NCBI RefSeq assembly: GCF_002078875.1
Contig: NC_034424.1
Span: forward strand, 5,441,566 to 5,505,565
Origin: Numida meleagris
Lineage: Eukaryota > Chordata > Aves > Galliformes > Numididae
Direction of reading: 5' to 3'
DNA: 64,000 nucleotides
The stretch's first letter is position 1, and each line of letters opens with the position of its first letter. The translations under genes were made by a program, and so were the position numbers. The notes under the pieces were generated by a model. The model was not told the DNA's origin, did not search any database, and was given only the letters and a program-made list of their open reading frames with translations. Positions 30,966 to 43,960 of this stretch are shown one piece after another.

Positions 30966-33399
30966 ATGAAGCTTCTCCACGCTGGTGTGCTCTCCATCCT
31001 TGCACCCACACTGACGCTCGCCATGGACCCGCTCAGCGCTTACCTCATTGTGGGGGGTGCTGCCATCGGCTGGCAGCTCTTCTCCCCGCACTCCTGGCTC
31101 AGGTGCAGTCTCCTGGAGTGCTGCAACGCAAAGGACATGCTGAACGTCTCGGGTAAGGCAGTGGGAAGGTCATGCTGAGCCGAGCTGACAGGGGTGGTCC
31201 TTCCCAGGGTGGGGAGGGATTCCCAGTGCATCCTTTGGGTGTTTGTGGTAAGAGGAGCTCCGGAAGGCAAAGGCTTCTAACACAAAGGCTTATCCCACCC
31301 CCCAGCCATTCACTGCCTATAACCTGTGATGAACGAGCAGTGATTAGTGCTAGCTCGAAGGTTCAAAACGCTGTTTCATTTCCCCCAGACAAGCAGGCCA
31401 GCAGTTATTTCACTCTGAAACTGCAGGGATGAAAAAACCTTGAGCTGCTTTCTAACCATACATTCCAGTGCTTGCCACTTGGAAATCCCCCACCCTTTTG
31501 TCATAAGACCGCAAATATTTCTTCATTTCAGAGCTGGGATGCAAATTTCAGAGGAAATTCTCAAGTGCTGGAGGCCCCTTTGCCTCCAGATTCTTCAATA
31601 CATCGCTTCATATCAGCTCTGCATTTGGCTGGTGACAAACAGGCTGTTTTCTGACACTTCAGCCATTGAAACTCTGGTTGGGATTCTTTTTTATAAGAAC
31701 ATTATATAGCAACAGAAGCATGGGTTTCTATAAAAACAAAGTGTGCTAGAGGACACAAAAACAGTTAATGAGAATTGAGCACATGCAGAGTATGTCTGCA
31801 GATACATTAGACTCCATCCCAGGGCTTTACAGGAGGCAGTGGTACACTGCCAAGCAAACTCATGGCAAACTCTCCTGCAGACAGCTTGGTACCCATAAAT
31901 GCCACTGAGATCTGTTTCACGAGTCCACCCCTGAGTTTGGCTCTCTGTTGATTCACGATCTCAACACAGAGTGAGGGCAGTGTATGTTTTCTCCTTCTGA
32001 TGGCCATTCAGCTGTAGCCAGAGAAAAGGGAGGAACGAATGGCACCCTCTGACTCTACCTTCAATCTTCCAGTTGTGAAGATGGATTTGGAGCAAAAAGT
32101 CTTTGGCCAGCATCTGGCTGTCCAAACAGTTCTGAGAGCTCTGAGTACGAACCTTCGCTCCAAACGGCCCAAGAAGCCCCTGGTGATGTCCTTCCACGGC
32201 TGGACTGGCACAGGCAAATCGTTTGTCAGCAGTATCATCGCAGAGAACCTCTACCGGCTCAGTGCATGGAGAAGGAGGTTTGTGCACCACTTCAGCACGG
32301 TGCTGCATTTCTCACACAGTTCGCACGTCCATCTGTACAAGGTACTTACAGCTTTAGCTCGTTTTCTCCAATTTATCTGCAGTTGTGCGTGCAAACACCA
32401 GATCGTTTTGTTTCTTCTCCCAGGAGCAGCTGCAGAATTGGATTCGGGGCAATGTCAGCGCCTGCCCAAGGTCCCTTTTTATCTTCTCTGAGATGGATCA
32501 AATGCCGCATGGCCTGATAGACTCTATCCTGCCATTCCTCGGCTACCGTGATGAGATTGATGGAGTTTATTATGGCAAGGCAATCTTCATCTTCCTGAAG
32601 TAAGGGAAGTCAAGGGCCAAAAGGGAGTTACAGCCCCGCAGACACAGCGGGGACAGAGGGAGTGACATTTGCTGACAGGTCTGTGGCTGAATCAGTGCAG
32701 CTGAGCAGCTCAGGGACCCTCCCTTGCTGTGGTCCTTGTCACTTCCCACCTCTGGGCAGCCCCCACACACAGGAACATCACTTCCACTCCAGTGCAGAAT
32801 CACACAGTCACTCAAATCACTGCCAGGATCAGAGCACTAGAGATGGCAAAGATACACCTCTAATGAGCCCGTGAATCTCCTTCCTAACAGCAATGCAGGT
32901 GGAGATAAGATAACGGAGATTGCTCTTGATTACTGGAGAAGGCTGAAGAGGAGAGAAGATATTCCTGCAGAGGAGCTCCAAGATCTGCTATCAGAAGACA
33001 TTTTCAGGAATCCAAACAGTGAGTACAGCACCTCTGGGCTCCCGCGGCTGCTGATGTATATGGGTCAGTTTTCTACAGACCGCTCTGCAAAGCATGCAGC
33101 AGCGCTGCCTCCTGAGCACTCCAATGGCACAGCTCTCCATGCTCTCTCTTCCAGGTGGTTTCTTTCAAAGCCAACTGATCCAGAAGAACCTGATCGACTA
33201 TTTCGTCCCCTTCCTCCCTCTTGAATACAAACACGTGAAGCAGTGTGTCCAGGAGGAGCTGCGTGCTCAAGGGCATCCTGAGGAGGAAGACCTCATCATG
33301 GAGATTGCCTCAGCAATGGCGGACTACCCCAGAGAGGAAAGGCTCTACTCCAGCAAAGGCTGCAAGACTGTGGCCTCCAGAGTGGCTCTGAGCACGTAG
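30966..33399 (+). CDS. Third torsin-1-type AAA+ ATPase paralog, unnamed (five exons, 334 aa)
   Basis: Torsins are ER-lumen/nuclear-envelope AAA+ proteins activated by LAP1 and LULL1. Exons are 30966-31152, 32073-32341, 32424-32599, 32891-33018 and 33155-33399. All borders are GT-AG and phases match TOR1A/TOR1B; exons 3 and 4 are 176 and 128 nt, as in both neighbours. A signal peptide (residues 1 to about 19), a hydrophobic segment (about 26-39) and CSLLECC precede the ATPase domain. Walker A at 105-112 is GWTGTGKS, where torsins have Asn at the end. Walker B is LFIFSEM, with Ser174 replacing Asp and Glu175 retained. Sensor-1 Asn (about 212), the RGNVS glycosylation site and the GCK motif (322-324) are kept. 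The DYT1 glutamate pair is Ser306-Ala307. The gene is intact, without frameshift or internal stop, and divergent from both neighbours. A lineage-specific duplicate is likely; its age is unknown. Confidence 0.88.
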
Positions 33400-33540: not shown

Positions 33541-33546
33541 AATAAA
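33541..33546 (+). terminator. Polyadenylation signal of the third torsin, at a CR1 boundary
   Basis: AATAAA 142 bp after the stop codon is immediately followed by TCACAGAAT, the end of a reverse-oriented CR1 copy. A second AATAAA lies at 33624 inside or just beyond the CR1 fragment. Confidence 0.6.
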
Positions 33547-33635
33547 TCACAGAATATGCCACGTTGGAAAGGACCCATAAGGATCGCTAAGTCCAACTCC
33601 TGGCTCCACACAGGACCACCCAATAAAGCAGAGCA
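33547..33635 (-). mobile_element. CR1 LINE 3' fragment, reverse orientation
   Basis: TCACAGAATATGCC followed by GTTGGAAAGGACCC and TAAGTCCAACTCCTGG is the reverse-oriented CR1 3' end. It is truncated, about 90 bp, with an uncertain right border. Confidence 0.75.
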
Positions 33636-33869
33636 CGTAGCTGAGAGAACACATGAGGTGCTGGCTGCGGGGCCGGCTTCCCACAGGCTCCTTTGGAGCA
33701 GTGCTTCTGTGCCTCGTGCCATCACCTGCCATGTCCCCATCACCTGCCACATCCCCAGGCCTGATGCGCTGCCCTGTCCCTTGGGATCTAGTGAAGGAGG
33801 GAGAGGAGGCTGAAGGCAGTGGCGTGGGGTGGGGAATGGCATTTAGGTGACTGTGGGAGAACGTGGTGG

Positions 33870-34055
33870 GACAGAGTAGGGGACAGGCACTGGGAGCCAG
33901 ATGTGGCACTGAGGGGACAGACGCTGTGTACCAGGGGTGGTGCTGAGGGGACAAACACCGCGGTACAGAGGTGGCGCTGAGGGGACACTGGGTATCAGGA
34001 GTGGCACTGAGAACACGCTGCGTCCCAGCGGTGGCACTGAGGGGACACACAACGA
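33870..34055. repeat. Minisatellite, 30-34 bp period, next to the TOR1B promoter
   Basis: The core GTGGCACTGAGGGGACA (or a variant) starts at 33903, 33937, 33971, 34001 and 34031, with a decayed copy near 33872. Spacing is 34, 34, 30 and 30 bp. The array ends about 130 bp before the TOR1B YY1-like site. It is open on both strands because of the repeat. Confidence 0.8.
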
Positions 34056-34084
34056 CACTGCTAGCGCTCACTCCCAGCTCGCCC

Positions 34085-34273
34085 CGAGGCAGCCAGGACA
34101 CACGATCCGCCCTCCCCGCCCCGCCCAACCTCCTTTAACGCTCCGCCTCCCGGCTTTCCGAAGGGCAGCACCGCCCCTCGCCCTTCACAAAGATGGCGGC
34201 GGCGGTTACCCGGGGGGCGCGGCGCTTCCCGCGCATCGCCGGCGGGCCGGAAGCGGGGCCGTGCGGAGGCGCC
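34085..34273 (+). promoter_or_regulatory. TOR1B: TOR1B CpG-rich promoter/5'UTR with YY1-like and ETS-like motifs
   Basis: A GC-rich, TATA-less segment directly upstream of the signal-peptide ATG contains AAGATGGCGGC at 34190, a good match to the YY1 motif that usually lies just downstream of a start site. GCCGGAAG near 34245 is ETS-like. The ATG inside the YY1 motif (34193) is in frame with TOR1B and would add 27 residues before the signal peptide. Confidence 0.55.
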
Positions 34274-36998
34274 ATGCCGCGGGCGGCCGTGCTGCTGTGG
34301 CTGCTGCTGCCGGGGCTGGCGGCGCTGGAGCCGCTCAGCGTGGGGCTGGCCATCGGCGTGGCCTCGGCGCTCACCGGTTACCTGTCCCACCCCAGCTTCT
34401 ACTGCAGCTACGTGGAGTGCTGCCCCAGCGCCGGGCACCGCCTCAACGCCACCGGTACCGGGAACGAGGGACGGGGTTCGGGGTCTCGGGGCGCGGAGGG
34501 GTCGGTGCTGACGGTGTGTCCCCGCAGCGCTGCGGGAGCAGCTGGACAGCAAGCTGTTCGGGCAGCACCTGGCCAAGGAGGTGGTGCTGCGGGCGGTGAC
34601 GGGCTTCAGCAACAACCCCAGCCCCAAGAAGCCGCTGACGCTGTCTCTGCACGGCTGGGCCGGCACCGGGAAGAACTTCTTGAGCCAGCTGCTGGCGCGG
34701 CACGTGCACCCCGCCGGGCTGCGCAGCAAGTTCGTGCACCTCTTCCTGGCCACGCTGCATTTCCCGCACCCGCAGCGCGTGCCCCTGTACCAGGTGAGCG
34801 CGGGGCGCCGGGCGGGGATAGCGCGGTTGTTGAAGGCCTCGAGGCTTCTGGGAACCAACCCCTGCATGGCGGTCCCTTGGTTTGCCCCGCTCTCCGTCTC
34901 CAGCCGCGCTGCCTTTATCCTGACCCTATTCTCGCTCCTTTGTGGCACTAGGGAACGTAGTCGGCGGGGATGGGTTGGGGTTGGGCTTGGAGAGGTCGTT
35001 CCCAGCCTCGCTGGTTCAGTGGCTCCCCTTACTGTCTGTGTGTCCTTTGGGAGCAGGTGGCCGTGGGGTGCTGGCTGCTGCTCAGCCCCACTGCGCCGTG
35101 CCATGAGAGCGTAGATAGGAGAGTCCCCGTGGGACTTCATTCCTCCAGCCTGGGGATTTCCTACTTTCACATTCCAGTGTTTGAATGGATGCCCTCGTAG
35201 GGGTGGTTTCTGTATGAAAGAGGAAACATTGCCTGTTAAAGCAAACAGATGGGCCCTCATAGCCAGATGTCACCGTCCCCTCCTTACACCGAGGAGAAAG
35301 AACGAGGAAGTTTGATTTGTGAGCGGGGAAAGAATCCACCTTTAAATGCAGCGTCACGTCCAAGGGATCCACCGCAGTGTTTGTGGCCCTCTCTGTGGGG
35401 GAATAAGGCCCAACCAATGGGGAGGGGTGGGGGCAGCTGGGAGGGTGTCTCTGGGGTCCCTACAGCCGCCTTGCAATCCGCCCTCAGCTTTCAGCGTTTC
35501 TCAACTTGTTCCAGGAGCAATTGCAGAGCTGGATTCGGGGCAACGTCAGCGCCTGCGCCCACTCGGTCTTCATTTTCGATGAGATGGACAAAATGCACCA
35601 GGGCCTCATCGACGCCATCAAGCCCTTCTTGGACTACTACGAGCAGGTTGACGGGGTGTCCTACAGGAAAGCCATCTTCATCTTCCTCAGGTCGGCAGCA
35701 CCTCGTGGGAAATCAATCTGTATTTATGATGCTAATGGTGTTTGCGTGGGGCTGCATTCAGAGTACAGCAGGAGAGCTGTATGAGAGCTCACGAGAACAG
35801 CACAGAGCACAGTTTGCGTGAGAGCTGAGATTCTGGGGAAGTTCTCTGGGATAGAGGCGTTGTGCACCGGGTATGGCTGGGATGGAGTTAAAATTCTCCA
35901 GAGCAGCCTGTTTGGTGCCTGTGTTTTGCATTTGTGGCTAAAACAGCACCGATAACGCCCCGGTGTTTGGCTGTTGCTTGCACAGCCTCAAGGATTCTTT
36001 TTATTTTCCTGGCTGGGGAGTGAGCAAGAGGCAAGAGTGGGAGGGAGCACAGCCAGGAGAGCTGAACTGGACTGACATGGGGAACATGCCACACTCCACA
36101 GCGACATGCTCAGCAATAAAAACTGGGGTAGAGAAAGAAGTGGGGGTAGCAGCCTCCAAGGTGAGGTCAGTGAGAGGCTGCCTGGGAGGGCAGTAATTTT
36201 GACTTAAAGGTTTCTGTGTTGATAACTTGTTTGATTTCAGATTAAGTTGGTGTGACCAGCTGAAAAGAAATTCTGGCTTAATTGTGTCAGCTCACTGCTG
36301 TAAATTTTTCTTTTATCAATAGCAATGCTGGTGGTGACTTAATTAATAAGGCAGCGCTTGACTTCTGGACAAATGGAAAGCGCAGGGAAGATATTCAGCT
36401 GAAAGACCTGGAGCCCATGCTGTCTGTAGGAGTCTTCAATAACAAGAACAGTAAGTCACTTTCCCTTAGAAAATGGGAAATTGCTTTACTTCAAACTGCA
36501 GGGTTAATCTCAGCAATCTGTACCTCACTACCTTGACTCTGCACCGCTTTTCTTGACCCCCACCTTTCCCCAGTGCCCCCTCACAGGCCCCTCCCAGGGA
36601 AGTTTTCATTACAGAAGTTGCTCATGGGTAGATAAACCTCATTGTGAATTGAGTCTGTACCCGAGTTGAGTCTGTTGCCCAAGTTTGGAGAACATCCTTC
36701 CTATATCTCTTTCCTTCCCTCAACTCCTGCAGGTGGACTGTGGCACAGCAGCCTCATCGACAGGAACCTCATTGACTACTTTGTTCCCTTGCTGCCCCTG
36801 GAGCACAAGCACGTGAAGATGTGTGTCCGGGCTGAGATGATGGCCCGTGGCCATGAAGTCGATGAGGAGGTTGTTCAGGCAGTGGCTGATGAAATGACAT
36901 ACTTCCCAAAAGAAGCGAAAATCTACTCTGATAAAGGCTGCAAGACTGTACAGGCCAAGCTGGATATCCATGAAGACATTGCAAAAGCCATGGACTGA
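34274..36998 (+). CDS. TOR1B: TOR1B, torsin-1B AAA+ ATPase (five exons, 338 aa)
   Basis: An ER-lumen and nuclear-envelope AAA+ ATPase closely related to TOR1A. Exons are 34274-34454, 34528-34793, 35515-35690, 36323-36450 and 36733-36998, all GT-AG, giving 338 residues (human TOR1B 336). A signal peptide ([18 protein letters not shown] region) and hydrophobic ER segment are followed by VECC. Walker A GWAGTGKN is at 103-110 and Walker B FIFDEM has Asp171/Glu172. Family-specific features shared with mammalian TOR1B include [38 protein letters not shown] and CKTVQAKLD. The C-terminus (HEDIAKAMD) extends past the human end. Start 34274 is preferred because it places the signal peptide at the N-terminus. 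Intron 3 holds an LTR fragment. Confidence 0.95.
35862..36165 (+). mobile_element. Solo LTR fragment, avian ERV-L-like, in TOR1B intron 3
   Basis: The stretch GGGTATGGCTGGGATGGAGT, later GCTGTTGCTTGCACAG, and a CATGCTCAGCAATAAAAACTG near the right end match the layout of a common avian LTR as I remember it. No retroviral coding sequence is present, so it is a diverged solo LTR in sense orientation to TOR1B. Borders are approximate. Confidence 0.55.
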
Positions 36999-41189: not shown

Positions 41190-43756
41190 TTAAAAGTCAT
41201 AGTAGTAATCCAGCTTTGCATCCACAGTTTTGCATCCTTTATCTGAATAAATCCTCTCCTCTCGGGGGAAGTAGGTCATCTCGTCCGCTACTCTGGTTAA
41301 AATGTCTTCATCCACAGCGTAGCCACGGGATTCGATCTCAACCCTGACACACATTTTCACATGTTTGTATTCCAGAGGCAGGAAGGGAACAAAATAGTCA
41401 ATGAGATTTCTATCAATCAAAGTGCTGTGCCAAAATCCACCTACAAAGGGAAAGAGAAGGGCTTTGTTACTGCTCCTCCAGTTAAACATCGCCGTGGGGT
41501 GAATATCACAGCCCCTGCTACAAACCAGGAAGAATCCATTTGTGTTTTTAGGGCCCTACAAAGCACAGCTCAGTCTAAAATTCAGCCTATTCTCATGGTG
41601 CTTTCTGCATCGTCTCAGCCACACAAACACAGTCTGCTGGATCTCTTCTGAATGAATGCATTTAAGCCCTGCTCCCCAGCTGCTAGTCTCACAGCCTCAC
41701 CTCTTTCACCTAGAGATCAGATTTTTTTCCTGTGTTACCAGCTCTCACAGGCCAGCTTGTCTCCTTGTATTTCTTCTCTTTACTTTCTCTTCAGCACATT
41801 AGTACATCAGTAAACGCACAGCACAGAATTCACAGAATCACGGAATTGTAGGGGTTGGAAGGGACCTCTAGAGATCATCGAGTCTAACTAACCTCCCTGC
41901 AAATTCCTCTAACAAACGTAACCCACAGACATCAAAGGGGCGCACACAGGTCTCCTAAGCTCTGTAATTCATCACAAGAGCTGTCCCTTTGGCCTCAAAT
42001 CTGCAGTATGGCTCCTGAGGCCAAAAACTGGAGGCCACATAAAGCAGAAACTACTTCTGTGAACTACAGCTCGTGCACTGACCACTGCCTGACATTTTTA
42101 TGGGACTCTGACTGCCTCAAAAGCAATCACAGCTTTACTCACTATTTCTGTTATTGAAGACAGACACAGACAGAGCGTTTTGCATATCCGTGAGCCGTAT
42201 ATCTTCCCTTGCCTTCCCATTTCTCCAGAAATCGAGTGCCACCTCTGTTATCTTTTCAGCTCCCGCATTGCTACAAAAAGAAAAAAAAAAAAGATTGTAA
42301 TTGAAGGTAGTTTTAAAAGGCACTGGGTGCACAGGACAACAAACCCGAGGAGTCGCTCCTTGCCTGAGGAATATGAAGATGGCCTGTCGGTACGACACTC
42401 CATCCAGAAGCTCATAGTAGTCCAGAAATGGCTTGATGGCATCAATGAGTCCTGCATGCATTTTATCCATTTCATCAAATATGAAGATTGATCTGGGACA
42501 GATGCTCACGTTTCCCCGAATCCATGACTGCAATTGGTCCTGAGCGGCATAAAAACAGGAGCAGCTGAAAGAGTTTGCGTTGAAAAGACAGAAAATAGGA
42601 ATTCTGCTTCCTGAGTTTTGTACTCCTTTCAACTGTATGATTTTGATAGCTTGCCTTCTTGACTGAAACATGGATAAATGCCGTAAATAAAACAAAACAT
42701 CATGCTGGTTCTGAAAAATGAGAACACCCAGAGACAGGATGAGACACGCAAGAAATCTCAAGAGAAATATATTCCTGAAAACACATCAGGAAGGAAAAGC
42801 TGCACATCAGGACAAAGGACAAGTACCAGGAGGAACAGCAGCACAGAGCAGAGCCTTGTCAAGCAAGCCGAGCGCTTCTGGCAGCGCTTCAGTCTGAGCA
42901 TCCCTCGGCATCAAAACTACACGGCCAGATTCATGATGTGAACTTCCACCTGCGGTCACTGGCACAGGCAGAAGCAGAATTCAGTCCTCAGCCCTTAGTT
43001 TGACTCACTCGGAAGTTAAATGAAAACAGTGATGAGTCCTTAAAACACAGCACACGAACTAAAGCTCTGCTGTATTAGGAGATCCTCTCACTTATGCTCT
43101 TAGAGGTTTCCAACCCTGGGGATCCCGTGGCAGCCCACCCCAGCGGCACTGCCGTCCTCCTGCCACTTTACCTTGTAGAGATTGATGCTATGAGCGTGAG
43201 GGAAATGCAGCGTAGCCACAAACTGATGGACGTAGTTACTCTTCAGCCCCTTCTTATAGATGCTCTCGGCGATGATCTTGCTGACGAAATTCTTGCCGGT
43301 GCCCGTCCAGCCGTGCAGGGACAGCGCCAGCGGCTTCTTGGCCTGGGCGTTGCTGAGGAAGCCCCGCACGGCCCTGACCACCACCTTGCTGACCAGGTGC
43401 TGCCCGAACAGCCGCCTGTCCAGGCTCTCCTGCAGCGCTGCGAAGCACACGGAGCCTTTAGCGGCGGGCAGAACCCCCAGCCCCATCCCAGCCCCGGGAC
43501 CCGGGACCCAGGCCCTCCCCGCGCCCCCAGCCCGGCCCGTACCGGCGGCGACGCGCTGCTCGTGCCGCTGGAGGCAGCACTCCCTGAAGTAGCAGTAGAG
43601 CCGCGGGTACGAGATGATGCCGGTGAGGGCCGAGGCGGCGGCCCCGGCGATCGCCAGCCCCAGGCTGATGGGCTCCACGGCCCGCGCGGGGGGCGCGAGG
43701 AGCAGCAGCAGCGCCAGGCCCAGAGCCGCCCGCAGCGCGCCCCGCCGCAGCTTCAT
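41190..43756 (-). CDS. TOR1A: TOR1A, torsin-1A AAA+ ATPase (five exons, 344 aa)
   Basis: The dystonia-associated ER/nuclear-envelope AAA+ ATPase, activated by LAP1/LULL1. Minus-strand exons are 43756-43543, 43437-43172, 42539-42364, 42270-42143 and 41440-41190, giving 344 residues (human 332). A basic N-terminus and a Leu-rich signal peptide end near [10 protein letters not shown], followed by the hydrophobic segment and RECC. Walker A GWTGTGKN is at 114-121; Walker B FIFDEM has Asp182/Glu183. The site of the human Glu302/303 pair reads Asp-Glu here (VADEMTYF). SDKGCKT and the C-terminus KLDYYYDF match TOR1A. Intron 3 must start GCAAGG to keep R/S-N-A-G in frame, making it a GC-AG intron. Intron 1 is only 105 bp. 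An in-frame upstream ATG at 43819 would add 21 residues. Confidence 0.95.
41822..41910 (-). mobile_element. CR1 LINE 3' end, reverse orientation, in TOR1A intron 4
   Basis: CACAGAATTCACAGAATCAC shows two CR1 terminal octamer repeats, then GGGGTTGGAAGGGACCTC and AGATCATCGAGTCTAACT. It is a truncated copy; the right border may extend toward 41950. Confidence 0.85.
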
Positions 43757-43960
43757 GGCCGGGCCGGCCGCTTCCGGTCCGCCGCTTCCGGCCTGCAGCG
43801 CCGCTTCCGCCGCCGCCATCTTGAGCCCGGGCAGAGGCGGGGCTGGGGGCGGCCATATTGGGCGGGGCGGTGGTTGAGTGACAGACGTCAGCCCGTGCCC
43901 ATAACGCAGTACGAAACGTCGCGCATTCAGTCCGAAAAGGGGAGAAAAAGGGATCAAACG
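43757..43960 (-). promoter_or_regulatory. TOR1A: TOR1A promoter/5'UTR with ETS-like repeats and a YY1-like motif
   Basis: The plus strand carries CGCTTCCGGTCCGCCGCTTC and a further GCTTCCG, that is several ETS-like CGGAAG sites on the gene's strand. CCGCCATCTTG near 43814-43824 is a YY1 site (CAAGATGGCGG on the gene strand), and an ACGTCA CRE-like half-site lies near 43885. The region is CpG-rich with no TATA. Confidence 0.55.

Follow-up and report, generated by a model that had tools for sequence, protein, structure and literature searches.

We identified a third torsin gene, here called X, beside TOR1B and TOR1A in a window of 64,000 nucleotides (nt) of Numida meleagris DNA (assembly GCF_002078875.1, contig NC_034424.1, positions 5,441,566 to 5,505,565, forward strand); the window is the whole stretch that was analyzed. 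X is a torsin by family and, as far as our literature search reaches, an undescribed variant by its active site and cofactor face. The explanation that we favor, with slightly more than even confidence when it is taken as a whole, is that X is a working third torsin of ancient origin, rewired in its active site and acting as a non-cycling partner. X lies at 30966-33399 on the forward strand, and its coding sequence of 1005 nt, closed by TAG, encodes a protein of 334 amino acids (aa) in five exons:

30966..31152, forward strand: exon 1, 187 nt, ending in phase 1; signal peptide-like start and hydrophobic N-terminus (by eye)
32073..32341, forward strand: exon 2, 269 nt, with the Walker A motif HGWTGTGKS inside
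32424..32599, forward strand: exon 3, 176 nt, with the glycosylation sequon NVS and the Walker B motif FSEMDQ
32891..33018, forward strand: exon 4, 128 nt, with the sensor 1 residue Asn 212; the codon of Asn 211 is split over the exon 3/4 junction
33155..33399, forward strand: exon 5, 245 nt, with the C-terminal small domain, the sensor 2 motif GCK and the stop TAG

All four introns (920, 82, 291 and 136 nt) have GT-AG borders, and the intron phases 1, 0, 2, 1 as well as the exons of 176 and 128 nt are common to X, TOR1B and TOR1A. An intact third torsin-1-like gene between PTGES and TOR1B, as the sequence-only reading had proposed, is confirmed by these exons, phases and the 334-aa product. 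With stop triplets making up 3.4% of the introns of X, a frame of 334 codons would stay open by chance with a probability of ~8e-6. The protein is ~50% identical to either neighbor (between TOR1A and TOR1B the identity is 65%), matches the Pfam domains Torsin (PF06309, E 1.7e-43, 148 bits) and TOR1A_C (PF21376, E 1.9e-19, 70 bits), for both of which the curated cut-off is 27 bits, and has the torsin AAA+ fold.

A search with X among 5.8 billion proteins (3012 candidates scored, 1056 matches) returned 44 orthologues among the best 120 matches, 65-94% identical and assigned by identity and motif. The holders of X among the matches listed are Galliformes, Anseriformes, many other birds, emu, tinamous, six turtles and Alligator, mostly with full-length proteins (one of the six turtle records is a 257-aa piece). 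Our alignment has 39 rows including the window, six of the 44 orthologues being omitted for length or quality; 26 of the rows are exactly 334 aa long, 32 measure 329-335 aa, and 188 of 331 sites are conserved within X at 90% or more. A goose-like record (P0007) holds the whole 334-aa frame on a contig of 1525 nt and is 99.4% identical to the Anser protein. Since this contig is shorter than the 2.4-kilobase gene with its four introns, it should derive from spliced RNA, and X is very likely expressed, a judgement made from the length of the contig, by which alone it is known.

X is evolving faster than TOR1B, yet is constrained, as judged from protein comparison: between the window species and Anser the identity is 83% for X and 94% for TOR1B, that is, ~2.7 times as many changes in X. 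The start of X is also less CpG-rich (observed/expected 0.48) than those of TOR1B (0.76) and TOR1A (0.80), which hints at restricted expression. Both observations could be taken to indicate that X is decaying, or is an artefact of annotation with no protein product, as could one low-quality record (Chlamydotis) and the partial penguin records. Against this stand the full-length frames found in turtles as well as in Alligator and birds, the protein conservation and the goose-like transcript contig, and we find such an explanation hardly credible. A pseudogene was therefore rejected, and the earlier view of X as intact and retained holds.

Two further searches, with a profile of 13 X-type proteins (1310 matches) and with a lungfish query (1093 matches), gave no further X by motif among the best 120 matches of each. 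No X from squamates, mammals, amphibians or passerines appeared among the best 120 of the 1056, 1310 and 1093 matches, a statement that covers these four groups and is based on protein listings, not genomes; parrots did not appear in the matches listed. Because passerine clusters of TOR1A (P0079, 259 members) and TOR1B (P0107, 223 members) are listed with no passerine X, a loss in songbirds is likely, as judged from cluster heads.

Databases list X already, with automatic names that do not agree (torsin-1A-like, TOR1A, TOR1B); the chicken protein XP_025011838.1 is called 'torsin family 1, member B-like'. The sequence-only reading had regarded an already named gene as fatal to its proposal, and with these automatic names that objection applies in part. 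No published description of X was found, as judged by titles and the openings of abstracts. The only cross-vertebrate study of torsin-1 that we found gives a dual TOR1A/TOR1B set for tetrapods and includes chicken torsins in its tree (PMC3460957; papers are cited here by PMC number, from excerpts). What is new is the combination of Ser at Walker B, Ser/Thr at Walker A and the disappearance of most residues that grip LULL1.

The active site is where X departs from its neighbors. The textbook torsin Walker A is the atypical GXXXXGKN (PMC7175109) and the canonical Walker B is hhhhDE (PMC4358337), and X has neither: the residue after the Walker A Lys is Ser or Thr in 37 of the 39 rows and Leu in the other two, and Walker B reads SE in 38 rows and AE in one. 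The two proteins with GKL, from Aramus (P0011) and Chionis (P0015), have neither of the usual Mg2+ ligands left. Lys 178 of TOR1A and TOR1B is Gln in X. Retained are the Walker A Lys, the catalytic Glu (39/39), the sensor 1 Asn (37/39), the sensor 2 GCK (all 38 rows with letters there), Cys280 (39/39), both redox cysteines and the NVS sequon. As the Lys of Walker A, the catalytic Glu, the Asn of sensor 1 and the Lys of sensor 2 are in place, nucleotide binding should persist. The Mg2+ site is rewired, with Ser for the Asp of Walker B and Ser/Thr for the Asn of Walker A, and hydrolysis is therefore likely to be slow or absent. Ser/Thr at Walker A was considered as a hallmark of X and dropped, as the TOR2A of the same genome has Thr there. 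With its GKT and FEEMD, this TOR2A also departs from the textbook motifs and indicates that Ser/Thr in Walker A is no invention of X, and the feature does not decide membership of the torsins.

The same residues might also serve a conventional torsin ATPase, in which Ser/Thr in Walker A offsets the lost Walker B Asp and the protein cycles with LAP1/LULL1 or another activator. The retained catalytic Glu, Walker A Lys, both sensors and both redox cysteines would suit such an enzyme, TOR2A has a similar pairing (GKT with FEEMD), and TorsinA tolerates the loss of the E303 salt bridge alone (PMC4999309). The GKL proteins, with neither usual ligand, and the loss of several LULL1 contacts at once, including a change of Phe/Tyr to Asp, are hard to reconcile with it, and we regard it as somewhat unlikely.

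The LULL1 contacts of TorsinA are K113, R288, E302, E303, F306, R312, D316, K317 and D327 (PMC4999309). Only K317 (37/39) and R312 (34/39) are broadly retained in X. With most of the named contacts gone, the way in which TorsinA uses LAP1/LULL1 is probably not open to X, which may be independent of both. On the torsin-torsin face, the back of the protein, Gly 251, which we take to play a role there, is kept and Asp 194 is mostly kept. The likeliest role for X would accordingly seem to be that of a non-cycling subunit that joins and tunes TorsinA/TorsinB assemblies, a proposal that we make tentatively, at somewhat less than even confidence. The signal peptide-like start, the hydrophobic N-terminal stretch and the conserved sequon point to a luminal AAA+ protein of the endoplasmic reticulum or nuclear envelope.

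Several points weigh against our explanation. The changed contact loop (residues 311-320) is weak in the model of X, with a mean predicted local distance difference test score of 54; the lungfish-type proteins introduced below retain Arg 288 and Glu or Gln 303; and removal of the E303 salt bridge alone does not abolish LULL1 binding (PMC4999309).

Another question regards the age of X. X securely goes back at least to the ancestor of turtles, crocodilians and birds. A greater age is suggested by two lungfish-type proteins, P0073 from Protopterus and P0103, which is 87% identical to P0073 and lies on a contig of 1351 nt; both carry GKT and FSEMD like X. In trees of hand-picked rows, X groups with them at 99/99 (62 rows), 100/98 (68 rows) and again 100/98 when TOR2A and TOR3A of the same genome are added (69 rows). 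With three motifs masked and four long rows taken out, support is 95/92 (58 rows; the Walker B of one row escaped the mask). On full columns, trees with X as a duplicate of TOR1B (p 0.00125), X as a duplicate of TOR1A (p 0.0062) and the lungfish proteins outside the tetrapod clade (p 0.0012) are all rejected, which answers the call for a tree: X is neither TOR1A nor TOR1B on these columns. A recent duplicate of the neighboring TOR1B, at 345.8 log units worse, was rejected too. By these trees X is placed outside the amniote TOR1A and TOR1B clades, a placement that is secure only with the signature columns included.

The signature was counted over 145 rows (158 proteins and the three window torsins, 16 having been dropped for length or quality). 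Four sites, S174, P180, D310 and S320, are common to X and both lungfish-type proteins and occur in at most 3% of the 104 other torsin-1-type proteins; when other long groups were paired as controls, the four pairings gave 1, 0, 1 and 1 such sites. As TOR2A has Ser at 320 and the bivalve protein P0122 has Pro at 180, only S174 (the Walker B Ser) and D310 are strictly shared, occurring in none of the 104 others. A Walker B Ser and an interface Asp common only to the two lungfish-type proteins suggest that X may predate the tetrapods. That it is older than the lungfish split we consider fairly probable but not secure, mostly on the strength of these signature sites.

This greater age has to be weighed against several results. 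With four motifs masked (Walker A, Walker B, the region of residue 310 and GCK) and TOR2A and TOR3A included, the pairing of X with lungfish is absent from the free tree, and holding the two together costs 0.8 log units (p 0.49); under the same masking no alternative is rejected, whether X is derived by duplication from TOR1B (p 0.12) or from TOR1A (p 0.18) or the lungfish proteins lie outside (p 0.14). When X is left out, the lungfish-type proteins join frog TOR1A-like proteins (96/88). Within X, Alligator groups with turtles (97/91 and 99/91) and not with birds, where the species tree would place it. Trees joining X to TOR2A (p 0.56) or TOR3A (p 0.49) fit equally well, and GKT, a Walker B without Asp (FEEMD) and SS ahead of xGCK also occur in the TOR2A of the same genome. 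The suggestion in the sequence-only reading of an ancestral torsin lost in mammals is thus favored by the lungfish signature and left undecided once the signature columns are masked and TOR2A and TOR3A added.

X could instead have arisen by tandem duplication of TOR1B or TOR1A in the turtle-crocodilian-bird stem and have evolved fast since, with the likeness to lungfish due to convergence of the active site. X adjoins TOR1B in the same orientation and with identical intron phases, such a duplicate survives the masked columns with TOR2A and TOR3A, and the lungfish-type proteins move elsewhere without X. However, full columns reject it; with lungfish left out, X falls outside all tetrapod TOR1A/TOR1B, beside shark and sturgeon proteins, albeit weakly (85/81); and Ser 174 and Asp 310 are shared with the lungfish-type proteins, with each control pairing reaching at most one site of the looser kind. 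We judge a duplicate of this sort unlikely. Alternatively, X might be a sister class of TOR2A, not a torsin-1, that came to lie in or moved to the TOR1 cluster. X and TOR2A of the same genome have the local motifs PLVMSFHG, GK(S/T)FVSS, SSxGCKTVASR and HVKQC in common, and the tree joining them matches the free one. Yet X is 46% identical to TOR2A, as against 48% for TOR1A and TOR1B, and 49-50% identical to both torsin-1 neighbors, and the comparison rests on one TOR2A sequence with a long branch; this origin seems to us unlikely.

In our explanation, X would be a working torsin of the PTGES-TOR1B-TOR1A cluster that probably arose before the lungfish-tetrapod split and disappeared afterwards from mammals and a number of other lineages. 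In the broadest form of this view, X would represent a class of vertebrate torsins of ancient origin that handles Mg-nucleotide in its own way, is free of LAP1/LULL1 and was lost independently in mammals, squamates, amphibians and songbirds, which is possible but doubtful. As separate observations, sharks have a second, well-separated torsin-1-like clade (P0144, P0135, P0149, P0156), with both types in Heptranchias, and multi-unit (tandem) torsins are predicted in skate and frogs (P0032, P0039, P0121, P0123), which may be fused models of tandem copies.

Six torsin loci were found in the 1.04-gigabase genome: X, TOR1B, TOR1A and three others that we take, by likeness, to be TOR2A, TOR3A and TOR4A. 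The window runs from a homeobox exon through further frames to X, TOR1B, TOR1A and more frames; by their translations, the non-torsin neighbors are presumably a PRRX2-like homeobox exon and a PTGES-like gene upstream of X, and C9orf78-like and USP20-like genes after TOR1A.

33541..33546, forward strand: AATAAA, a probable polyadenylation signal, 142 nt 3' of the stop of X
34274..36998, forward strand: TOR1B, five exons of 181/266/176/128/266 nt, 338 aa
41190..43756, reverse strand: TOR1A, five exons of 214/266/176/128/251 nt, 344 aa
contig ~4767100: TOR2A (locus L007, 5120-7886), on the same contig as X, ~0.7 megabases away

A second AATAAA follows X at 33622, and ~33550-33625 looks by eye like a fragment that we take to be CR1-like. 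In the gap between X and TOR1B, imperfect repeats of the type GAGGGGACA were seen by eye at 33860-34060. The donor of TOR1A intron 3 is GC (CAG|GCAAGG, 42358-42363, reverse strand), with GT in X and TOR1B, and an in-frame upstream ATG (MAAA...) precedes the start used in TOR1B (~34190-34273, forward) and TOR1A (~43757-43830, reverse).

Torsins are the proteins behind an inherited dystonia, and X may show how they function when their usual activators are not involved. Should X be real and old, databases miscount and misname the torsins of birds and reptiles and get their orthology wrong; should the ancient-class reading be true, every description of torsin biology so far would come from animals without X. 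X is altered where the dystonia mutations delta-E303 and R288Q fall and has yet been retained for ~250 million years, which makes it a natural experiment; comparison with TorsinA could show how far a torsin can function with neither LAP1/LULL1 nor the standard Mg2+ site.

Among known systems, TOR1A and TOR1B resemble X most in locus, five exons, phases, Pfam domains, AAA+ fold, catalytic Glu, sensors, GCK, NVS sequon and signal peptide-like start; X differs in being ~50% identical, in having Ser/Thr for Asn in Walker A, Ser for Asp in Walker B and Gln for Lys 178, and in its replaced LULL1-contact residues. TOR2A is like X in its Ser/Thr Walker A, non-Asp Walker B (same genome) and SSxGCKTVASR C-terminus, but it has Glu in Walker B where X has Ser, lies at another locus and is no closer in identity to X than to TOR1A. 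The lungfish torsin-1A-like proteins share GKT, FSEMD, Asp 310 and Ser 320 with X, but keep Arg 288 and Glu/Gln 303 and are 51% identical to it. LAP1 is a membrane-spanning protein. In LAP1/LULL1, degenerate AAA+ activators of torsins, the torsin system already offers the concept of an AAA+ partner that does not hydrolyse, but LAP1 has no Walker A and hhhhHR as Walker B (PMC4358337), whereas X, a torsin by sequence, keeps most nucleotide-binding residues. The torsin-like cluster on zebrafish chromosome 23 likewise adds torsins beyond the human set, but is reported to be absent from other teleosts and to have a different exon structure (PMC3460957); we set it beside X by description only. Finally, globin E, an unrelated protein, is alike in pattern alone, with a patchy spread over birds, turtles, coelacanth and lungfish (PMC6343008).
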